A stretch of DNA of 43,265 nt from a virus. The DNA is taken from positions 1 to 43,265 of the IMG/VR virus record IMGVR_UViG_3300033146_000838. One strand, 5' to 3'. The notes under the pieces were generated by a model. It did no database searches, was not told the DNA's origin, and saw nothing but the letters and a program-made list of their open reading frames with translations. Of the stretch, positions 115 through 43,265 are shown in pieces. Every line of letters starts with the position of its first letter. Positions within the stretch are counted from its first letter, which is position 1. The translations under genes and the position numbers were made by a program.

Positions 115-710
115 GCTTGTTGAAACTCTCGTGGATATTTGCTCATCCCCATCCCATGTTTGTAGTTGGGATTTTCCTTGCCCATCAATGTAGCAGAATG
201 ATAATCGTTTTTGCAATCCATCGAACAAAATTTTGTCAAATGACTTAATGGCTTGAATTCCTTTTGACAGAAAAGACATTTTATATTTTTTAATTTGAAT
301 CTGCTCTTTAAATATTCCTTTTTGCAATCTATACAATATTTGCTGTATTTTGTTTCTGGCTCTTTTACCCCACATACTTTGCACATTCTTTTGTTTTTTA
401 TTGCATGATGATTTCTTGAGCATTGTAGAGAACAGTACAGGTCTTTTTGCCCACTCTTTGCCGCACTTCTTATTTCGTGAGCATGTTTTAAACATTTTTT
501 CCCACAAAATTTGCATTCTATTTCTATTTTCGTAAAAGATAATTTCTTCTCCGTTCTTGCAATTCTCCAACGCCTTGTACCCTTGTCCCACAACGAAGAA
601 TTTGTGTTCTCCGGTAGCCTTAATAACGCTTCCTCCACTTGTGACAAGCTTACAAAGTCCTCCTTTGGTTTGCTTTTTTGTAGCGATGACTTTTTTGAAT
701 TCTGTTTCAT
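1..710 (-). CDS. HNH homing endonuclease nested in the +1 frame of the TerL intein (5' part)
   Basis: Read one base off the intein frame, the strand encodes a zinc-rich HNH protein. CxxC pairs occur in IECKFCGKKC, MCKVCG, YCIDC, CLFC and FCSMDC, followed by CVVCGGKEDIVIHHKDLNP (first HNH half) and, across the junction, NLVPVCRICHAKHHH. The first in-frame ATG after a stop is at 710, but homology-like sequence begins only near 545, where frame 0 is already past block B. Start choice is therefore unclear (ATG 710, TTG 593, or +1 slippage at the TTTT run 537-534). Pyrimidine-ending codons followed by AAN, AGN or GAN all end in C (20 of 20 by hand). Elsewhere about 59 of 66 end in T. This is what keeping the overlapping frame free of stops requires. 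Confidence 0.88.
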   Translation of the reverse strand, partial: MKQNSKKSSLQKSKPKEDFVSLSQVEEALLRLPENTNSSLWDKGTRRWRIARTEKKLSFTKIEIECKFCGKKCLKHAHEIRSAAKSGQKDLYCSLQCSRNHHAIKNKRMCKVCGVKEPETKYSKYCIDCKKEYLKSRFKLKNIKCLFCQKEFKPLSHLTKFCSMDCKNDYHSATLMGKENPNYKHGMGMSKYPREFQQAKYRIRKTNPSCVVCGGKEDIVIHHKDLNPQNNKEENL

Positions 711-2797: not shown

Positions 2798-3091
2798 TGC
2801 TAGCGTGCCTTGTGTGCAGTCTATGTGCTTTGCTTAATTCTAAAGTCGCACAATATACATTGTCAGACATTAACAATGGCTTAGATAAGCCGTTTATGTG
2901 TTAAGTGTCCAGTTAAAAGAAAAACACTTTTTCTTTTTTTGTTGACTGTAAGGGAAAGAAAGAGAGTTAAAATACATATTGTAATACAACATTTTGTCTA
3001 TACATAGTTTATATTACATAAATTATTTTGAACCAATACAATATTAATACATTAGCTTTATATATATAGGTATGAGTTAGAATAGTTTATA

Positions 3092-3110
3092 CCCTTTTTT
3101 TCTTTTCCGC
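3092..3110 (+). repeat. Pyrimidine-CCGC intergenic repeat, copy 1 (diverged)
   Basis: CCCTTTTTTTCTTTTCCGC, a degenerate copy of the element seen at 3609, 4121, 4224 and 4821. It lies in the gene-free region upstream of the first early gene. Confidence 0.5.
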
Positions 3111-3217
3111 GAATTAAAATAGTTTATCAATAGTTTTTTTTAAAATACAATTGCCTTACACTAGCTATTAAATACAATTTAGCAACACATTATTCTATAA
3201 AGTCAAGTAATTATCTA

Positions 3218-3246
3218 TTGACAAAGTTAAATAGCAGGTATAACAT
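3218..3246 (+). promoter_or_regulatory. Early promoter for the 3347-4764 cluster
   Basis: TTGACA at 3218-3223 followed by TATAAC at 3239-3244 (15 nt) or TAACAT at 3241-3246 (17 nt). The block CTATTGACAAAGTTAAA is shared with the promoters at 7967 and 8346 and, less exactly, 13121. Confidence 0.65.
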
Positions 3247-3346
3247 GAAGTCGTTCAATCATTATTTATCTTTTAAACTTCTATTGTCGGCTGAATGCTA
3301 ACAGCTAAACAAAGCAAAACTATTTATTATTTAATTTATTTATATC

Positions 3347-3607
3347 ATGAAATACCAAAATCTCAAGCGTCTAAGATGCTTTACAATCTCTTATTTACCT
3401 GCCACCAATACAAAAGGTAGTAGAATTAAGATAAAAGACACTAGACACGAAAAAACAGTTATTATCCCTTTTGATTACAATTTTGATAATATCAAGCAAG
3501 GGGCATTTGAATATCTAAAATCAATAGGCATTGATATCTTAGCAAGTAGCGAAATTAGACAAACTGATTTGCTTTTTGCAGATGATTTTGCTGATAATCT
3601 AATTTAA
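3347..3607 (+). CDS. Small early protein, unknown function
   Basis: 86 residues (MKYQNLKRLRCFTISYLPAT...), basic N-terminus and acidic C-terminus (LLFADDFADNLI). No Shine-Dalgarno; the ATG follows a TTTATTTATATC leader also seen before the next gene. The stop is followed at once by a copy of the pyrimidine-CCGC repeat. No family recognised. Confidence 0.65.
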   Translation: MKYQNLKRLRCFTISYLPATNTKGSRIKIKDTRHEKTVIIPFDYNFDNIKQGAFEYLKSIGIDILASSEIRQTDLLFADDFADNLI

Positions 3608-3608
3608 G

Positions 3609-3627
3609 CCCTTTTTCTTTTTACCGC
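3609..3627 (+). repeat. Pyrimidine-CCGC intergenic repeat, copy 2
   Basis: CCCTTTTTCTTTTTACCGC, beginning 2 nt after the stop of the 86-residue gene. Matches copies at 4121 and 4224 almost base for base. Confidence 0.7.
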
Positions 3628-3670
3628 AATTTTAAAAACCTTTATTTTATTATTTTAACTTATTTATATC

Positions 3671-4120
3671 ATGGAAAAAATCACATTAGGAAAAGTAAAA
3701 ACAGAAATCAAAGAAAGTCAATCCTATAATCCAAAAAAAGATAGCCTTTTTATACAAGGTGAAACAATAGTAATCAAAAAGCATAGCTTTGATTGTGGAT
3801 GGTATTGGGGCTTTGGTTATATAGGAAACAGAAATTTACATTGCCATTCTAGTATATTCACAAATGAATTACTTTGGCATGATGCTAAAGATGTCTTTGA
3901 AAAATCAATCTTTGAAAATAATAAAGATTTTTGGATTTTCAAAGATTTATTAGCTCAAGCGTATGCATTACAAAAAGCATCAGAAGTTTATAGACATGGT
4001 GGTTTTATTACTAGCGGGGCTATTACAGAAATAATCAAAAACAAAGACAAAGAAAATGCAATCAATAAAGATTTAAAAAAGGTATTAGACACTCTATGGA
4101 ATTTTTTAGAAAGTCTTTAG
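3671..4120 (+). CDS. Early protein with a GWYWGFGYIGN motif, unknown function
   Basis: 149 residues. A central aromatic segment (FDCGWYWGFGYIGNRNLHCH, residues 41-60) with Cys and His could form a compact or metal-binding core; the rest is mostly charged helix. Preceded by an AT-rich leader and followed directly by a repeat copy. I recognise it only as a type of hypothetical phage protein and assign no function. Confidence 0.7.
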   Translation: MEKITLGKVKTEIKESQSYNPKKDSLFIQGETIVIKKHSFDCGWYWGFGYIGNRNLHCHSSIFTNELLWHDAKDVFEKSIFENNKDFWIFKDLLAQAYALQKASEVYRHGGFITSGAITEIIKNKDKENAINKDLKKVLDTLWNFLESL

Positions 4121-8851: not shown

Positions 8852-10774
8852 ATGACTAATACAGTAGATGATTATGAAAAAGGATTTGAAGAAAGAAAAA
8901 TATTTTATAAACTTTCAAAACTAGACCTTAGTGATGAAGATCCAATATTCTCAAAAGAAAAAAGATTAACTTGGGGAACTAAAGGATTAGATGATGAACT
9001 TCCTCCAATAGAGAAACATCATTTGATGGTTATTGTTGGGGCTGGAGGAGTTGGAAAATGTCTTGGAAAAGGAACAAAAGTTAGAATGTTTAATGGAGAT
9101 ATTAAAAAAGCAGAAAATATTTGCGTAGGAGATTTAGTAATGGGAGATGACTCAACTTCGAGAAAAGTTTTATCTCTTGCTAGAGGAAAAGAACAAATGT
9201 ATTGGGTAAGACAAAATACTGCTATGGATTATAGAGTTAATGAGTCTCATATTCTTTCACTTAGAAAAACAGCCAAAAATAAAATAACTAAAAAAGATAT
9301 TAGTGTAAGAGATGTATTGCAGGAGTGTCCAAATTTTTTGAAGAACAACTTTAAAGGATATAAAAATCCAATAGAATATCCAGTCAAAAAGTTATCAATA
9401 GATCCATATTTTTTAGGTTTATGGCTAGGAGATGGTAGTGCTAGAGATGTTAGAGTTACTATAGCGGATAAAAAGACAGGGATAATAGATTTTCTATATT
9501 CTTATGCTTCTCAGCTTGGAATGAAAGTTAATATTAACAGCAATAAAGATGTAAAAGCAAAATCATTTGGCATTACCACTGGTAAACGAGGAAATCCTAA
9601 CCACGAGTGTCTACAAAAAAAATTAAGGCTATTAAATTTATTGAATAATAAACATATTCCAAGAGATTTTTTAATAAATTCAAAAGAGAATAGGTCTAAA
9701 CTCCTAGCTGGATTATTAGATACTGATGGCTATCAAAATTCTAAATGTTGTTTTGATTTTATACAAAAGAGAAAAAAGTTAAGTTATCAAATAAAACAAC
9801 TTGCAGATTCTTTAGGTTTTAAAACTTCGATTAGAAAATGCAAAAAAGGTATTAAATCAATAGGGTTTATTGGTGAATATTATCGCTTGACTATTTCTGG
9901 TGATTTTTCTGATATTCCTTTTAGACACCATACAAAAGGGGAATGGACACAACTTGGTCATTGGGGTAGCACTGGAATCAGCATAGAGAAAGATATAGTT
10001 GATAATTATTATGGATTTTCTCTAGATGGAAACCATAGATTTTTATTAGAAGATGGAACAGTAACTCATAATAGTACATTCACTTTAGACTTAGCTGAAA
10101 AAAATAGCAAGTTAGGACATAGAGTTCTCTACTTATCATTAGAAGAAGAAGTTGAGAATTTTGTTCGTAAAGTTTGTATAAAGACAGCAGGAATTGATAA
10201 AAATCAATGGAGAGATAGAGCAGAAAGACCAATACCACAACGTCAAGTAGATACTTATATTAATAAACAGGCAGAAATATATGATAATGAGAATTTAATC
10301 ATAGCCTCACTGAAGAAAGGAGAAATATGTTTAGATGCTAATATAAAAAATATAACAAAGATGATAGAAGTACATGACCCAGACTTTGTTATAATAGATA
10401 ACTTTAATTTAGTTGAAGCTTCAAAATATGCCAAAGGAAATGAGATAGATGACAGTATAATAAAATTCTTTCTAACATATACTAATAAAGTTAAGATACC
10501 AATCTTATTTTTACACCATACAAACAAAGAAGGTAAAATACGTGGATCAGAAAAAATTAGAGACTCAGCAGATATAGCTCTTTCTATAACAAGAGAAATT
10601 GATGAGCATGCTTCACCAGAAGATAATGCTACTACTCTTATATCATCAGCTAAAGACAGAGATTGGGGAACATTTCAAGCAGCTAAGATATTTTTTAATA
10701 GAGGAACATTTAATGACGAATATATTGAACCACAAATTGTATCTTATAACAAGGGAAGTTTCCTTGACAATTAA
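8852..10774 (+). CDS. RecA-fold replicative helicase interrupted by an intein
   Basis: 640-residue precursor. Exteins (residues 1-69 and 408-640) join to a 302-residue ATPase: Walker A GAGGVGK|STFTL is restored by splicing, Walker B is DPDFVIIDN, followed by ILFLHHTNKEGKIRGSEKIR (sensor/DNA-loop-like) and DIALSI. The size and motif order fit the RepA/AAA_25 or DnaB-core type of hexameric helicase without the N-terminal DnaB domain. The intein occupies 9059-10072. The upstream TTTATTTATTTAAC leader replaces an SD. No separate primase gene is visible. Confidence 0.88.
   Translation: MTNTVDDYEKGFEERKIFYKLSKLDLSDEDPIFSKEKRLTWGTKGLDDELPPIEKHHLMVIVGAGGVGKCLGKGTKVRMFNGDIKKAENICVGDLVMGDDSTSRKVLSLARGKEQMYWVRQNTAMDYRVNESHILSLRKTAKNKITKKDISVRDVLQECPNFLKNNFKGYKNPIEYPVKKLSIDPYFLGLWLGDGSARDVRVTIADKKTGIIDFLYSYASQLGMKVNINSNKDVKAKSFGITTGKRGNPNHECLQKKLRLLNLLNNKHIPRDFLINSKENRSKLLAGLLDTDGYQNSKCCFDFIQKRKKLSYQIKQLADSLGFKTSIRKCKKGIKSIGFIGEYYRLTISGDFSDIPFRHHTKGEWTQLGHWGSTGISIEKDIVDNYYGFSLDGNHRFLLEDGTVTHNSTFTLDLAEKNSKLGHRVLYLSLEEEVENFVRKVCIKTAGIDKNQWRDRAERPIPQRQVDTYINKQAEIYDNENLIIASLKKGEICLDANIKNITKMIEVHDPDFVIIDNFNLVEASKYAKGNEIDDSIIKFFLTYTNKVKIPILFLHHTNKEGKIRGSEKIRDSADIALSITREIDEHASPEDNATTLISSAKDRDWGTFQAAKIFFNRGTFNDEYIEPQIVSYNKGSFLDN
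9059..10072 (+). mobile_element. LAGLIDADG intein inside the helicase Walker A motif
   Basis: 338 residues, from Cys1 (CLGKGTKVRMFNGDIKKAENI) to HN followed by Ser+1. Block B is VNESHILSL. Endonuclease motifs are YFLGLWLGDGSA (first LAGLIDADG) and LLAGLLDTDGYQ (second). The end is NYYGFSLDGNHRFLLEDGTV then THN, with penultimate His and terminal Asn. Insertion between Lys and Ser of GVGKS inactivates the ATPase until splicing. All motifs are intact, so it is probably active for both splicing and homing. Confidence 0.95.
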
Positions 10775-20294: not shown

Positions 20295-22877
20295 TTATTC
20301 GAAATAATTATTAAGTAATGTGTCTGCTTCTGTATCAGCATATGACTGTGCCAGTTTTTCTGGGTCTGACATAAGTTCTTTTTGTTCCATCCAACCGAAT
20401 GTACTATCCATTATACCTTTTAAAATATCTTGAGGTGTACGTTTACCTTTAGATTGTAGATACATAGCTTGTTCTTCAGCAGAAAGTATTTCAGATAATT
20501 CTGTTAATCCTGTTGCTGTATTTAATTGTGTATTAACTTCAGCCATAGTATTATCATAAAGTCCATTCATTAATTCTATATTAACATCATTTGGATTCCA
20601 AGACCCAGGGAAGAATTGTGATAGGAATTTCCTCTCTGGTTCTGATACAGCTACACCAGATATTTGTTTTATATAACTTGCTAGGTTCATTCCCATAGAT
20701 TGTTCAAGACGAGCTAATTCTGGTCCTTTATTATTAACAGCCCATTTCTTAACACTATCCCAAGACTTAGTAACTCTACCTGTCCCACCATGTGCTTTAT
20801 CATAATCCCTATATAATGTACCCATTATGTTCATCTTTTTAAGGAATGTCTTTCTATCTGCCCAATCTTTATCATACTTTATCATATTAGAATCTATTTT
20901 ATCTTGCGCTCTGTTAATAGCAGATAAGTCTTTTGGGTTTTCCATCATCCTTTTAGAAATACTAAATGCCTGTTGTTGCATAGCTTTCTGGTTAGCAGCA
21001 GGAAGAGACATACCTAATGTATTCATAGCTTCTGCATACTTACCTTGTTCTGGTGGTAATACCTGTGTGTAATCACCAGCCTGTATATCCTGTAAAAGAC
21101 TAACAGTTTCCCAATCTCCTTCTTCTCCATATTTATCAATAATCTTTTGTCTTCCAGACATAGTTGGGTTTAACATTGTAACTGCATCTGCAAATATTTT
21201 TGGAGTCTTGAATGTATCACTTAAATATGCTGGCATTTCTGTTCTATTATCATTATTAACAAATCCAGTAAAGCTAGACATAGGCACTGCTGTTCTACTA
21301 GATTCCTTTTGGTCTGTCTTTCTATTGTATTCAACTGTATCAGCTACTAACTTACCATTCTGTTCATATACTTTAGATATGATACCTACATGACCATAGT
21401 CACCAATAGACTCTACAAAGACATCACCTGGATTAACTTCATTAACATCTGTTATATTTATCATACCTTCTTTCTCTTTCTTTCCATTAGGCATACCCAT
21501 ACCAGTAACATCTTTAACAAATTCTCCACATTGTTTACCAGTTTGTTCTGTTACTCTACTTATAGTTTCTGAATAACCTTCTGGTATATCTACTACAAAT
21601 TCATCTCCATCTTGGAAAGAAGTTATACCATGTGTTCCTTCTCTTGTAGGTACTGTACCACTAATTTCAGATGAAGCATTAGCTATCTCTTCTGGAGTAT
21701 ATCCTTCGCTGTATGCAAATTGTTTAGCTAATGTTGGGTTAGATTGTAGTAAAGCTTTATAGTATTCAAAGTTCTCTTTTTCTTTAGATATTTTATCTTC
21801 TGCAACAGCTTCATACTCTCCTGTTAATTCCTGTAAAGCAATGTTGCGTTGTTCTGAGTCTAAGTTCTTATCATCCCAGATACCTTTATATTTAACCATA
21901 AATGAAGCAGCTTGGTCTTCACTTATATAACTATTAGCTGTAAGTGTCTTTAATGATTCAGATGTTAAATCCATATTTCTCATAGCAGCATCATCTAAGA
22001 ATGTCATAGCCTTAGTGGTGTTCTCCATTCTCATTTTGTCCTTATCTTCTGATTGAGACATCTTAGCACCTTCTGCAAGTAATCTCTTTGTAGCTCCGTC
22101 CAAAGAACCATATCTAGTCATGAACTCATCTTGCTGTTCTCTCGATAAAGCTTGAAAGGCAGGATTATCTACTAAGGTTTCTAATTCCTTTTGTTGTGTT
22201 GCTTTTAATTCAGTCTCCGATGTCTTTAGTTTCTCTTCTTGTTCCATAGCAATCTTATCACTAGCGTTTTTAGCGTTAATCAATTCTGCTCTTGCTTCTA
22301 CTATTTCAGTACGTAAGGCAGCTGATGTACTTCTTTTATTTTCTTCTACCAGTCTATCTAGTTGTCTTTGTTTCTCATCAATAGCACTCATACTTTGAGT
22401 ACGAGCTTCATTAAAGATTTGAGCTGTTTCAGCTCCTAATAGTTCTGTCGTTCTAGCAGTCATAGAAGTATCACCCATAGCTTGTGCAGCTCTGGATAAT
22501 GATTCTTGTTGTCTAAGTTCTTTTTGTTTTCGTAACTTCTCTTCTCGTAGTAACTTAGTCTGTATTTTGTTTTGCTTAGCAGACTCTTCCATATTCTCTA
22601 AAGTAATATCAGTCTGAGTTCTGTTAAGGTTCTCATAAGCCTCTTGGTAAGAGATGCCTTGCTTTTCTGCTACATCTTGAACTTCATCAGTACGAGACCT
22701 ATTAATTGTTTTTTGTTCAGGGCTTATTCTAGGAGTGCTAGGTGTAGTTCCATTCTGGTCAGATATAGCTGTCATACCTTCATCATATCTAGCTTGTTCG
22801 TAACCCTTATATCCACCAGCATAAGTATTGCCAGCATCTCTCCATTCTTCGTAACTGTTGTATTTTTTTAATGCCAT
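20295..22877 (-). CDS. Large virion protein with CHAP peptidoglycan-hydrolase domain
   Basis: 860 residues. The N-terminal third is coiled coil (about residues 60-240). A CHAP-like amidase/endopeptidase lies at about 440-530, with catalytic Cys in GKQCGEFVKD and His in GDYGHVGIISKV. The C-terminal third is helical. A structural protein carrying a wall hydrolase in a short-tailed phage is best read as an ejected internal protein that opens the cell wall at infection. A linear search should confirm CHAP; the Cys-His spacing (about 47 residues) fits. Confidence 0.75.
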   Translation of the reverse strand: MALKKYNSYEEWRDAGNTYAGGYKGYEQARYDEGMTAISDQNGTTPSTPRISPEQKTINRSRTDEVQDVAEKQGISYQEAYENLNRTQTDITLENMEESAKQNKIQTKLLREEKLRKQKELRQQESLSRAAQAMGDTSMTARTTELLGAETAQIFNEARTQSMSAIDEKQRQLDRLVEENKRSTSAALRTEIVEARAELINAKNASDKIAMEQEEKLKTSETELKATQQKELETLVDNPAFQALSREQQDEFMTRYGSLDGATKRLLAEGAKMSQSEDKDKMRMENTTKAMTFLDDAAMRNMDLTSESLKTLTANSYISEDQAASFMVKYKGIWDDKNLDSEQRNIALQELTGEYEAVAEDKISKEKENFEYYKALLQSNPTLAKQFAYSEGYTPEEIANASSEISGTVPTREGTHGITSFQDGDEFVVDIPEGYSETISRVTEQTGKQCGEFVKDVTGMGMPNGKKEKEGMINITDVNEVNPGDVFVESIGDYGHVGIISKVYEQNGKLVADTVEYNRKTDQKESSRTAVPMSSFTGFVNNDNRTEMPAYLSDTFKTPKIFADAVTMLNPTMSGRQKIIDKYGEEGDWETVSLLQDIQAGDYTQVLPPEQGKYAEAMNTLGMSLPAANQKAMQQQAFSISKRMMENPKDLSAINRAQDKIDSNMIKYDKDWADRKTFLKKMNIMGTLYRDYDKAHGGTGRVTKSWDSVKKWAVNNKGPELARLEQSMGMNLASYIKQISGVAVSEPERKFLSQFFPGSWNPNDVNIELMNGLYDNTMAEVNTQLNTATGLTELSEILSAEEQAMYLQSKGKRTPQDILKGIMDSTFGWMEQKELMSDPEKLAQSYADTEADTLLNNYFE

Positions 22878-41968: not shown

Positions 41969-41996
41969 ATTATACCACAATAAAAGATTACCTCAA
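41969..41996 (-). promoter_or_regulatory. Late promoter for the portal-capsid operon
   Basis: Minus strand TTGAGG (41996-41991, in the last codons of terL), 16 nt ending in TGTGG, TATAAT (41974-41969). Predicted start 41962, about 35 nt before the portal ATG (41927). Confidence 0.75.
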
Positions 41997-43265
41997 AATA
42001 GAGCGTCTCTTGCTTCCGAGTATCTTATTGTTGTATTCTGCCATAGCTTTATCAGGTGTCAAGATGCCCCCCCCTCTTTCTTCCCACATTGAAACTGCCT
42101 GTGCTAAAACATCAGGTAGATCATCATGTTTATCCGCAGGAAACTTGAGTAATTGACGTTCTAATTTAAACCAAGTCTTGTCTGTGTTGTCATTTCTGAA
42201 ATGTAGAGCATGTCGGTTAAAGATAGGCTCTAATGTATATTTGATTCTGTCTTCTTTCTTACCTTTATTGACTGGTCTGAAAGGTAGCACTGTGTAAAAC
42301 TTACCAGAGTCCCTGATAGCTTTATTAAATCCTTTAGAGAAGTCCTGTTGTTTAGTAGATAACGATACTTCCTCCAGCGAGATGAAGTCAAGAGTCCAGC
42401 CAGCAGACTTCCACTTTTCAGCTAGGGAAATAACATAAGCGTAAGATTGACTAGGAGTAACAGTTTCTCCAAAGATGTCAAGAACATATATCTCTCCTGT
42501 CCCTTTGTGTTTAGCAGTTACTACGATAGCTGTATCATCTGAATACTTACGAGTTGAGAAAGCAGGGTCTATACTGATACCTATTGTAAAGTCTTCCTTC
42601 TTTAGGTCAGACAAAGCACAATAACGAAAATCTGATTTTTTAAATATCTCACCAGTAGATGAGATAGGGTCTTGTTGGTATAAGGCTGCGAAGTCACGTT
42701 CACCGATGGCGTCTCTCTGTTGTTCGTAGAACTCTAGTCCTAATCCTGGCCTGTTACATAAGGCTTCATTTTCTTCATTAATAGCAGGGAAAGAAAGTAT
42801 CTCCCAATTATCTCCATCTGTTTCTATAATACGTCCAGCTAAGTCATCTATGTTCCATCGAGTCATCAGTAAGATGATAGCAGAGTTAGAACCTTGCTGA
42901 CGAGTAAAGAATGTAGAAGTGTACCAATCCCATACTGACTCCCTTACTGTCAATGACTCAGCCTGTTGTCTATCTTTAACTGGGTCGTCGATTATTCCGC
43001 AGTTATGAGCCAAAATCCCATTAACAAAGAAATTATGATTGTCTTCTACTTGTAAATCGTACACATCCTCTTCTCCTTTTAAGAAAGTAATTGAGGAAAT
43101 GGTGTCTGTTTTGAGTGATGATGTTTCGCATGACATATCCGACAAACAGGGACTAGATTTTCTTCCTTGTTGTTTTGTGGATTTAAATCCTTGTGATGTA
43201 TCACTATATCTTCTTTTCCTCCACAAACTACACAAGAAGGATTTGTCTTTCTTATTCTGTATTTC
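41988..43265 (-). CDS. terL: Terminase large subunit, C-terminal part (continues from base 1)
   Basis: Second half of terL. Bases 43151-43002 encode the end of the intein, with block F/G motif GEEDVYDLQVEDNHNFF and terminal AHN followed by Cys+1. The C-extein (43001-41991, 337 residues) starts CGIIDDPVKDR (Walker B, IIDD) and goes on through LLMTRWN (coupling motif) to the RNase H-fold nuclease, with ISIDPAFS and a late KHDDLPD acidic motif. The gene ends at 41988. The portal promoter -35 lies in its last codons. Bases 43152-43265 duplicate 1-114. Confidence 0.95.
   Translation of the reverse strand, partial: EIQNKKDKSFLCSLWRKRRYSDTSQGFKSTKQQGRKSSPCLSDMSCETSSLKTDTISSITFLKGEEDVYDLQVEDNHNFFVNGILAHNCGIIDDPVKDRQQAESLTVRESVWDWYTSTFFTRQQGSNSAIILLMTRWNIDDLAGRIIETDGDNWEILSFPAINEENEALCNRPGLGLEFYEQQRDAIGERDFAALYQQDPISSTGEIFKKSDFRYCALSDLKKEDFTIGISIDPAFSTRKYSDDTAIVVTAKHKGTGEIYVLDIFGETVTPSQSYAYVISLAEKWKSAGWTLDFISLEEVSLSTKQQDFSKGFNKAIRDSGKFYTVLPFRPVNKGKKEDRIKYTLEPIFNRHALHFRNDNTDKTWFKLERQLLKFPADKHDDLPDVLAQAVSMWEERGGGILTPDKAMAEYNNKILGSKRRSILR
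43002..43151 (-). mobile_element. TerL intein, C-terminal part with splicing blocks F and G
   Basis: The last 50 intein residues. SSITFLKGEEDVYDLQVED and NHNFFVNGILAHN match intein blocks F and G, with the penultimate His and terminal Asn present and Cys as the +1 residue. These motifs are in the terminase frame (0). The HNH frame terminates at TAA 43081-43079, just upstream of block F. Confidence 0.93.
43079..43265 (-). CDS. HNH homing endonuclease nested in the +1 frame of the TerL intein (3' part)
   Basis: C-terminal end of the nested HNH gene, ending with TAA at 43081-43079. It contains the second half of the HNH fold (NLVPVCRICHAKHHHSK). At the AAAA run 43112-43109 a -1 shift from this frame would give ...HHHSK-TDTISSITFLKGEED, which is the expected smooth HNH-to-block-F join of an ordinary HNH intein. 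Bases 43152-43265 are the duplicated end. Confidence 0.88.
   Translation of the reverse strand, partial: KYRIRKTNPSCVVCGGKEDIVIHHKDLNPQNNKEENLVPVCRICHAKHHHSKQTPFPQLLS
43152..43265. repeat. Right copy of 114-bp terminal direct repeat
   Basis: Exact copy of bases 1-114. Joining the two ends restores one open frame for terL from 1284 down through 1/43151 to 41988, which supports circularity. Confidence 0.95.

Follow-up and report, generated by a model that had tools for sequence, protein, structure and literature searches.

A free-standing HNH endonuclease gene probably overlaps a contiguous phage TerL mini-intein in the +1 frame

The viral contig IMGVR_UViG_3300033146_000838 of IMG/VR, whose entire 43,265 nucleotides were analyzed here and are referred to as the window, carries in its terminase gene TerL an intein whose central part is open in two frames. 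It is a circularly closed phage contig with a 114-bp end repeat (1-114, unstranded, identical to 43152-43265), so that TerL wraps across the join. On the minus strand, the TerL frame (frame 0, hereafter f0) is stop-free for all 815 codons, which comprise TerL and an intein extending from C156 to N478 (Cys at 819, Asn at 43002). The N-extein of TerL (820-1284), with Walker A in ...GLTGRGFD, matches Pfam Terminase_6N. It is followed by the N-terminal splicing block of the intein (538-819; Intein_splicing, E 3.4e-20, and intein_Nterm) with Cys1 and the TxxH of block B, by a stop-free linker (1-537, then 43151-43110), and by the C-terminal splicing block VYDLQVEDNHNFFVNGILAHN (43002-43109; TIGR01443 intein_Cterm, E 2.6e-9). 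The C-extein (41988-43001) begins at Cys+1 with CGIIDDPVKD... and contains Walker B. Cys1, block B, a C-terminal HN followed by Cys+1 and a HINT fold, modelled on the relative L112, identify the insertion as an intein, and its intact motifs suggest that it would excise itself. In f0, the N- and C-terminal splicing regions and the terminase have Pfam or NCBIfam matches; the linker has none.

Read in +1, this linker translates into a protein in which several CxxC zinc motifs are combined with an HNH motif at the C-terminus. The maximal +1 open reading frame (ORF) extends from 728 to 43079, and the contig junction falls within its HNH region of 192 codons; the 5' part of the HNH/zinc-finger endonuclease thus occupies 1-728 and the 3' part 43079-43151, with a stop at 43081-43079, both on the minus strand. 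The original prediction had placed the splicing blocks in f0 and the HNH in +1, and this two-frame description, a mini-intein and an endonuclease, holds. The +1 protein of the window has by itself a weak match to Pfam HNH (E 0.0037). In a set of 48 +1 proteins, however, the HNH motif (HH..N..H) is found together with zinc-binding cysteines, 16 residues including the zinc cysteines and the HNH histidines are invariant, and domain searches match Pfam HNH in 38, HNH_3 in 32 and PHROG HNH family 8048 in 48 of 48. An AlphaFold model of the +1 HNH of Gordonia phage Clown reached a predicted local distance difference test (pLDDT) score of 82.6, with weak resemblance to McrA-type HNH folds. An endonuclease encoded by a group I or group II intron was ruled out, as Rfam detected no intron in the window, in Clown, in Synechococcus phage S-EIVl or in the relatives L003 and L186.

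The layout is widespread. Viral contig scans and a six-frame hidden Markov model search, with an open f0 required for entry, yielded 55 distinct inteins having an HNH between the splicing blocks in one open frame. The HNH lies in +1 in 52 of them, in f0 in three (L137, L168 and L177, the only relatives with an in-frame HNH) and in +2 in none, a 52:3 ratio that is biased because the HNH model was trained on the same family. Of the loci that f0 stops had kept out of the set, L126 alone carried a +1 HNH as well. The 52 inteins come from viral contigs and phage genomes, and nearly all of them reside in TerL; in all, dozens of unrelated phages and prophages share the layout. Translated searches with tblastn showed TerL and the intein blocks in one frame and the HNH in +1 in L003, L004, L005 and L006, and the same layout occurs in the cultured phages Clown and S-EIVl, whose records annotate a long TerL only. 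At the TerL Walker-B site, an intein-led viral scan found 21 distinct inteins with a +1 HNH and four HNH-less mini-inteins. A genome scan with the window HNH as single protein gave no match, so the C-block/TerL alignment was used instead; this C-block-led scan of bacterial genomes added prophages of Fictibacillus arsenicus and actinobacterium OV450 and a metagenome-assembled genome (MAG) of Anaerolineaceae. The layout even appears to survive a changed genetic code: in a Gracilibacteria MAG (L188, 635-1573), every one of the 13 apparent f0 stop codons is a TGA, and translating TGA as glycine opens f0 and +1 alike.

Is the double frame real? An ordinary HNH intein with its endonuclease in frame could give a similar picture if sequencing or assembly had introduced two indels that cancel each other, the more so as both frame switches fall in homopolymers and the metagenomic contig closes within the region. 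A stop-free f0 would not be expected by chance in that case. Synonymous recoding of the 192-codon HNH region introduced a mean of 25.1 f0 stops under genome codon usage and 15.8 when its own codons were shuffled, and none of 20,000 trials reached the zero observed; in other genes of the same genome, the longest stop-free run in this relative frame is 46 codons. The open double frame is therefore far beyond chance. It is also visible in codon choice, since a wobble T would create an f0 stop in front of AA, AG or GA: T is absent from all 1581 HNH codons preceding these dinucleotides, compared with 29.7% elsewhere. These tests, together with recurrence of the +1 layout in 52 distinct inteins, cultured-phage genomes and isolate prophages, leave a virtually negligible probability for error; the two-in-one layout is a maintained arrangement.

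Substitution patterns indicate which of the two frames is selected. Mismatch rates at the first, second and third f0 codon positions were taken from 11 independent pairs: the N block gives 0.32/0.22/0.40, the linker 0.57/0.32/0.26 and the C block 0.16/0.11/0.38. The variable position thus shifts to the +1 wobble inside the linker and returns after it, a flip in periodicity which places the +1 protein under purifying selection. Amino-acid identity in the linker is 0.62 in +1 and 0.33 in both f0 and +2. A function of the f0 linker was ruled out, as ten aligned sequences have no invariant column, Pfam gives no match and identity is no better than in the third frame; the linker is probably just kept open and is predicted to be disordered. 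In an AlphaFold model of the L112 f0 product, the HINT halves have pLDDT values mostly of 93-98 and the linker mostly of 41-57, and the best PDB matches include the Ssp and Npu DnaB mini-inteins (E ~1e-6). One could still regard the +1 HNH as a decaying relic within a mini-intein, given that the HNH of L187 is disrupted by indels and that HNH-less mini-inteins occupy the same TerL site. Purifying selection in the 11 pairs, the 62% against 33% identity and the 16 residues invariant across 48 sequences make such decay highly improbable.

How, then, is the HNH protein made? The original prediction had located the frame exchanges at TTTT (534-537, f0 to +1) and AAAA (43109-43112, +1 to f0) on the minus strand, with exact positions and directions, and had proposed that programmed +1 and -1 slippage there lets some ribosomes make a full in-frame HNH intein. 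The coincidence of both switches with homopolymers is the attraction of this model. The 75 nucleotides around the N switch are however AT-rich and contain four runs of 4 or more, so that homopolymers are unremarkable there. Among 52 relatives with the same architecture, 36 have a run of at least 4 at the N switch, where shuffling predicts 33.1, and 21 have one at the C switch, where it predicts 26.5. Both counts are at chance level and neither site is conserved, an outcome that the original prediction had itself named as refuting it. The +1 ORFs of relatives moreover have stop codons of their own, mostly within the C block or close to it, which makes a return shift of -1 unneeded in most of them.

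The onset of +1 coding bears on the question more directly. Across relatives, +1 stops number 133 in nucleotides 0-120 of the intein (109.6 expected), 19 in nucleotides 120-270 (71.9 expected) and only 3 after nucleotide 180 (30.4 expected). As controls, stops in nucleotides 120-270 of HNH-less mini-inteins (131 vs 130.6 expected) and stops in the +2 frame (190 vs 181.6) follow expectation. A stop-poor, conserved +1 stretch thus begins around nucleotide 120, about 150 nucleotides upstream of the proposed TTTT slip (around nucleotide 283). Third-position variation in f0 also falls at this point (0.48 before, 0.24 after), against a change from 0.29 to 0.31 in mini-inteins, for which only two pairs were available. 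Slippage at the homopolymers would leave +1 unselected upstream of the switch, yet selection is already present there, which favors internal initiation. A frameshift gene would have a conserved slip site and selection on the new frame starting from it; here the site is unconserved and selection precedes it. Compared with synonymous shuffles, this +1 stretch is also enriched (z -3.7) in sites that combine a Shine-Dalgarno (SD) sequence with a start codon, whereas +2 and the mini-inteins show no such surplus. On these grounds we rejected slippage at the two homopolymers, which we consider very unlikely.

A different route into +1 would be a programmed shift near nucleotides 100-180 of the intein, yielding a fusion of TerL, the N-terminal intein half (IntN) and the HNH. 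Such an early shift in the N block might, in theory, leave the same trace, as it predicts the early +1 constraint equally well, and this ambiguity weighs against a separate start, as do two further facts: no single start codon or spacing is conserved across relatives, and some loci, such as L117 and L130, offer weak SD candidates only. On the other side, SD/start sites are enriched in that stretch, +1 stops just upstream exceed expectation as they would for an independent ORF, and no shared slip motif was noticed by eye, in the course of an inspection that was not systematic. We therefore hold the early shift to be very unlikely and favor internal initiation, at a start codon that would differ between lineages. 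In the window, the best candidate is a TTG (645-647) preceded by the putative SD sequence AAAGGAGGA (658-666; free energy, dG, -11.6, spacing 10), both on the minus strand, with ATG 710 and GTG 638 as competing starts. Further examples are an ATG after AAGGGAGGTT in L121 and an ATG after AGAGGTGG in L041.

Taken together, the window very probably contains a contiguous TerL mini-intein on which a free-standing, internally initiated HNH homing endonuclease gene is overprinted in +1. Ribosomes would translate the TerL precursor straight through in f0, and the mini-intein would then excise itself, its 190-residue linker acting as disordered ballast required only to be stop-free. On the same mRNA, other ribosomes would start separately inside the N-splicing block, most likely at TTG 647 after AAAGGAGG in the window, and the resulting HNH protein would terminate at its own +1 stop. 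The original prediction had allowed for 'perhaps a free HNH protein', which agrees with this reading. By analogy with its family, the HNH may cleave TerL alleles that lack the intein, at the Walker-B site, and thereby spread the element. L008, a close TerL relative, is empty at the site of the window intein; against this scenario, no close pair of intein-containing and intein-less alleles with near-identical flanks was found.

Published descriptions treat intein endonucleases as domains that lie in frame inside the HINT domain. In fractured genes, reportedly described by Dassa et al. in 2009, an endonuclease ORF is said to lie between the halves of a split intein. The window resembles that arrangement in that the endonuclease would be made apart from the splicing domains, between IntN and the C-terminal half (IntC). 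It differs in that the host frame is broken there and the halves splice in trans, whereas TerL is continuous over 815 codons. Conventional HNH inteins are exemplified by the dCTP deaminase intein of cyanophage CL131, whose self-excision has been shown (PMC6293099). There too the HINT domain is split by an HNH endonuclease, but in frame and within one polypeptide; in the window it is out of frame and predicted to be translated separately. The closest published case is the hidden HNH of ShiLan, in a mycobacteriophage DNA methylase (Arsenault, Gosselin & Gogarten 2025, PMC11855218), where an insertion kept open in the host-gene frame likewise encodes an HNH in another frame and internal leaderless initiation at a GTG was proposed. 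ShiLan has no splicing domain, being neither intein nor intron, and combines the 'third' frame, a methylase host and leaderless initiation without SD. The window, in contrast, has complete splicing blocks in f0, hence a full mini-intein as host frame, with the HNH in +1, TerL as host and a predicted start in the N-splicing block with SD enrichment. A 2025 bioRxiv preprint by Gosselin et al. on actinobacteriophage inteins of 'non-canonical architecture' (10.1101/2025.01.02.630785), cited by the ShiLan paper, may overlap with the present findings, Clown being an actinobacteriophage. Mycobacteriophage TerL inteins are known as TerL1-a to -e, with TerL1-e in Walker B; according to the available passages of Kelley et al. 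(2016, PMC5050341), splicing and cleavage were shown for some of them, cleavage being found in those with identifiable homing endonuclease (HEN) domains. They share with the window a TerL host and, for one, a Walker-B site; those same passages contain no description of an out-of-frame HNH.

Related layouts suggest how the arrangement may evolve. In L126 (2997-4115), f0 is full of stops after IntN and is followed by a +1 HNH and then by an IntC with its own possible start; the locus is probably a fractured gene akin to the nested arrangement, and in the HNH tree L126 groups with the nested L130 and L132. The tree places 50 of 54 +1 rows on one side, with few columns and long branches, so that a single origin is not settled by it. 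We lean, by a modest degree, towards the view that TerL inteins include an old and widespread class whose endonuclease is obligatorily overprinted in +1 of a contiguous mini-intein, a natural genetic entanglement, and that loss of f0 continuity leaves split intein halves with the endonuclease between them, as in L126, a route to fractured genes. With such overprinting, an indel that disrupts the reading frame of the endonuclease would disrupt the essential packaging gene as well. A whole lineage would thus keep its endonuclease as a separate overlapping gene, in parallel with engineered gene entanglement, and this lengthy stretch of dual coding, 192 codons in the window, recurs in more than 50 distinct inteins, one seemingly with TGA as glycine. 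Annotation pipelines overlook the overprinted gene, as the Clown and S-EIVl records illustrate. Some 'mini-inteins' may hide an endonuclease rather than have lost it, and therefore need rereading; how inteins move, how endonucleases are lost and where split inteins come from become testable questions.

Further loci depart from the nested layout. In L064, L071, L082, L088 and L090, which are candidate split inteins, separate intein halves flank ORFs that resemble other endonucleases (GIY-YIG or Vsr-like by eye). In L009, another close TerL relative, the Walker-B site is empty and an in-frame intein, LAGLIDADG-like by eye, lies at the P-loop (3029-4000). The window genome itself carries a second intein, a conventional in-frame LAGLIDADG element at Walker A (GVGK|C...HN|S) of a DnaB/RecA-like helicase (8852-10774, plus strand). 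Elsewhere, an 860-amino-acid protein (20295-22877, minus strand) has a marginal CHAP-domain match and is possibly a tail-associated lysin.
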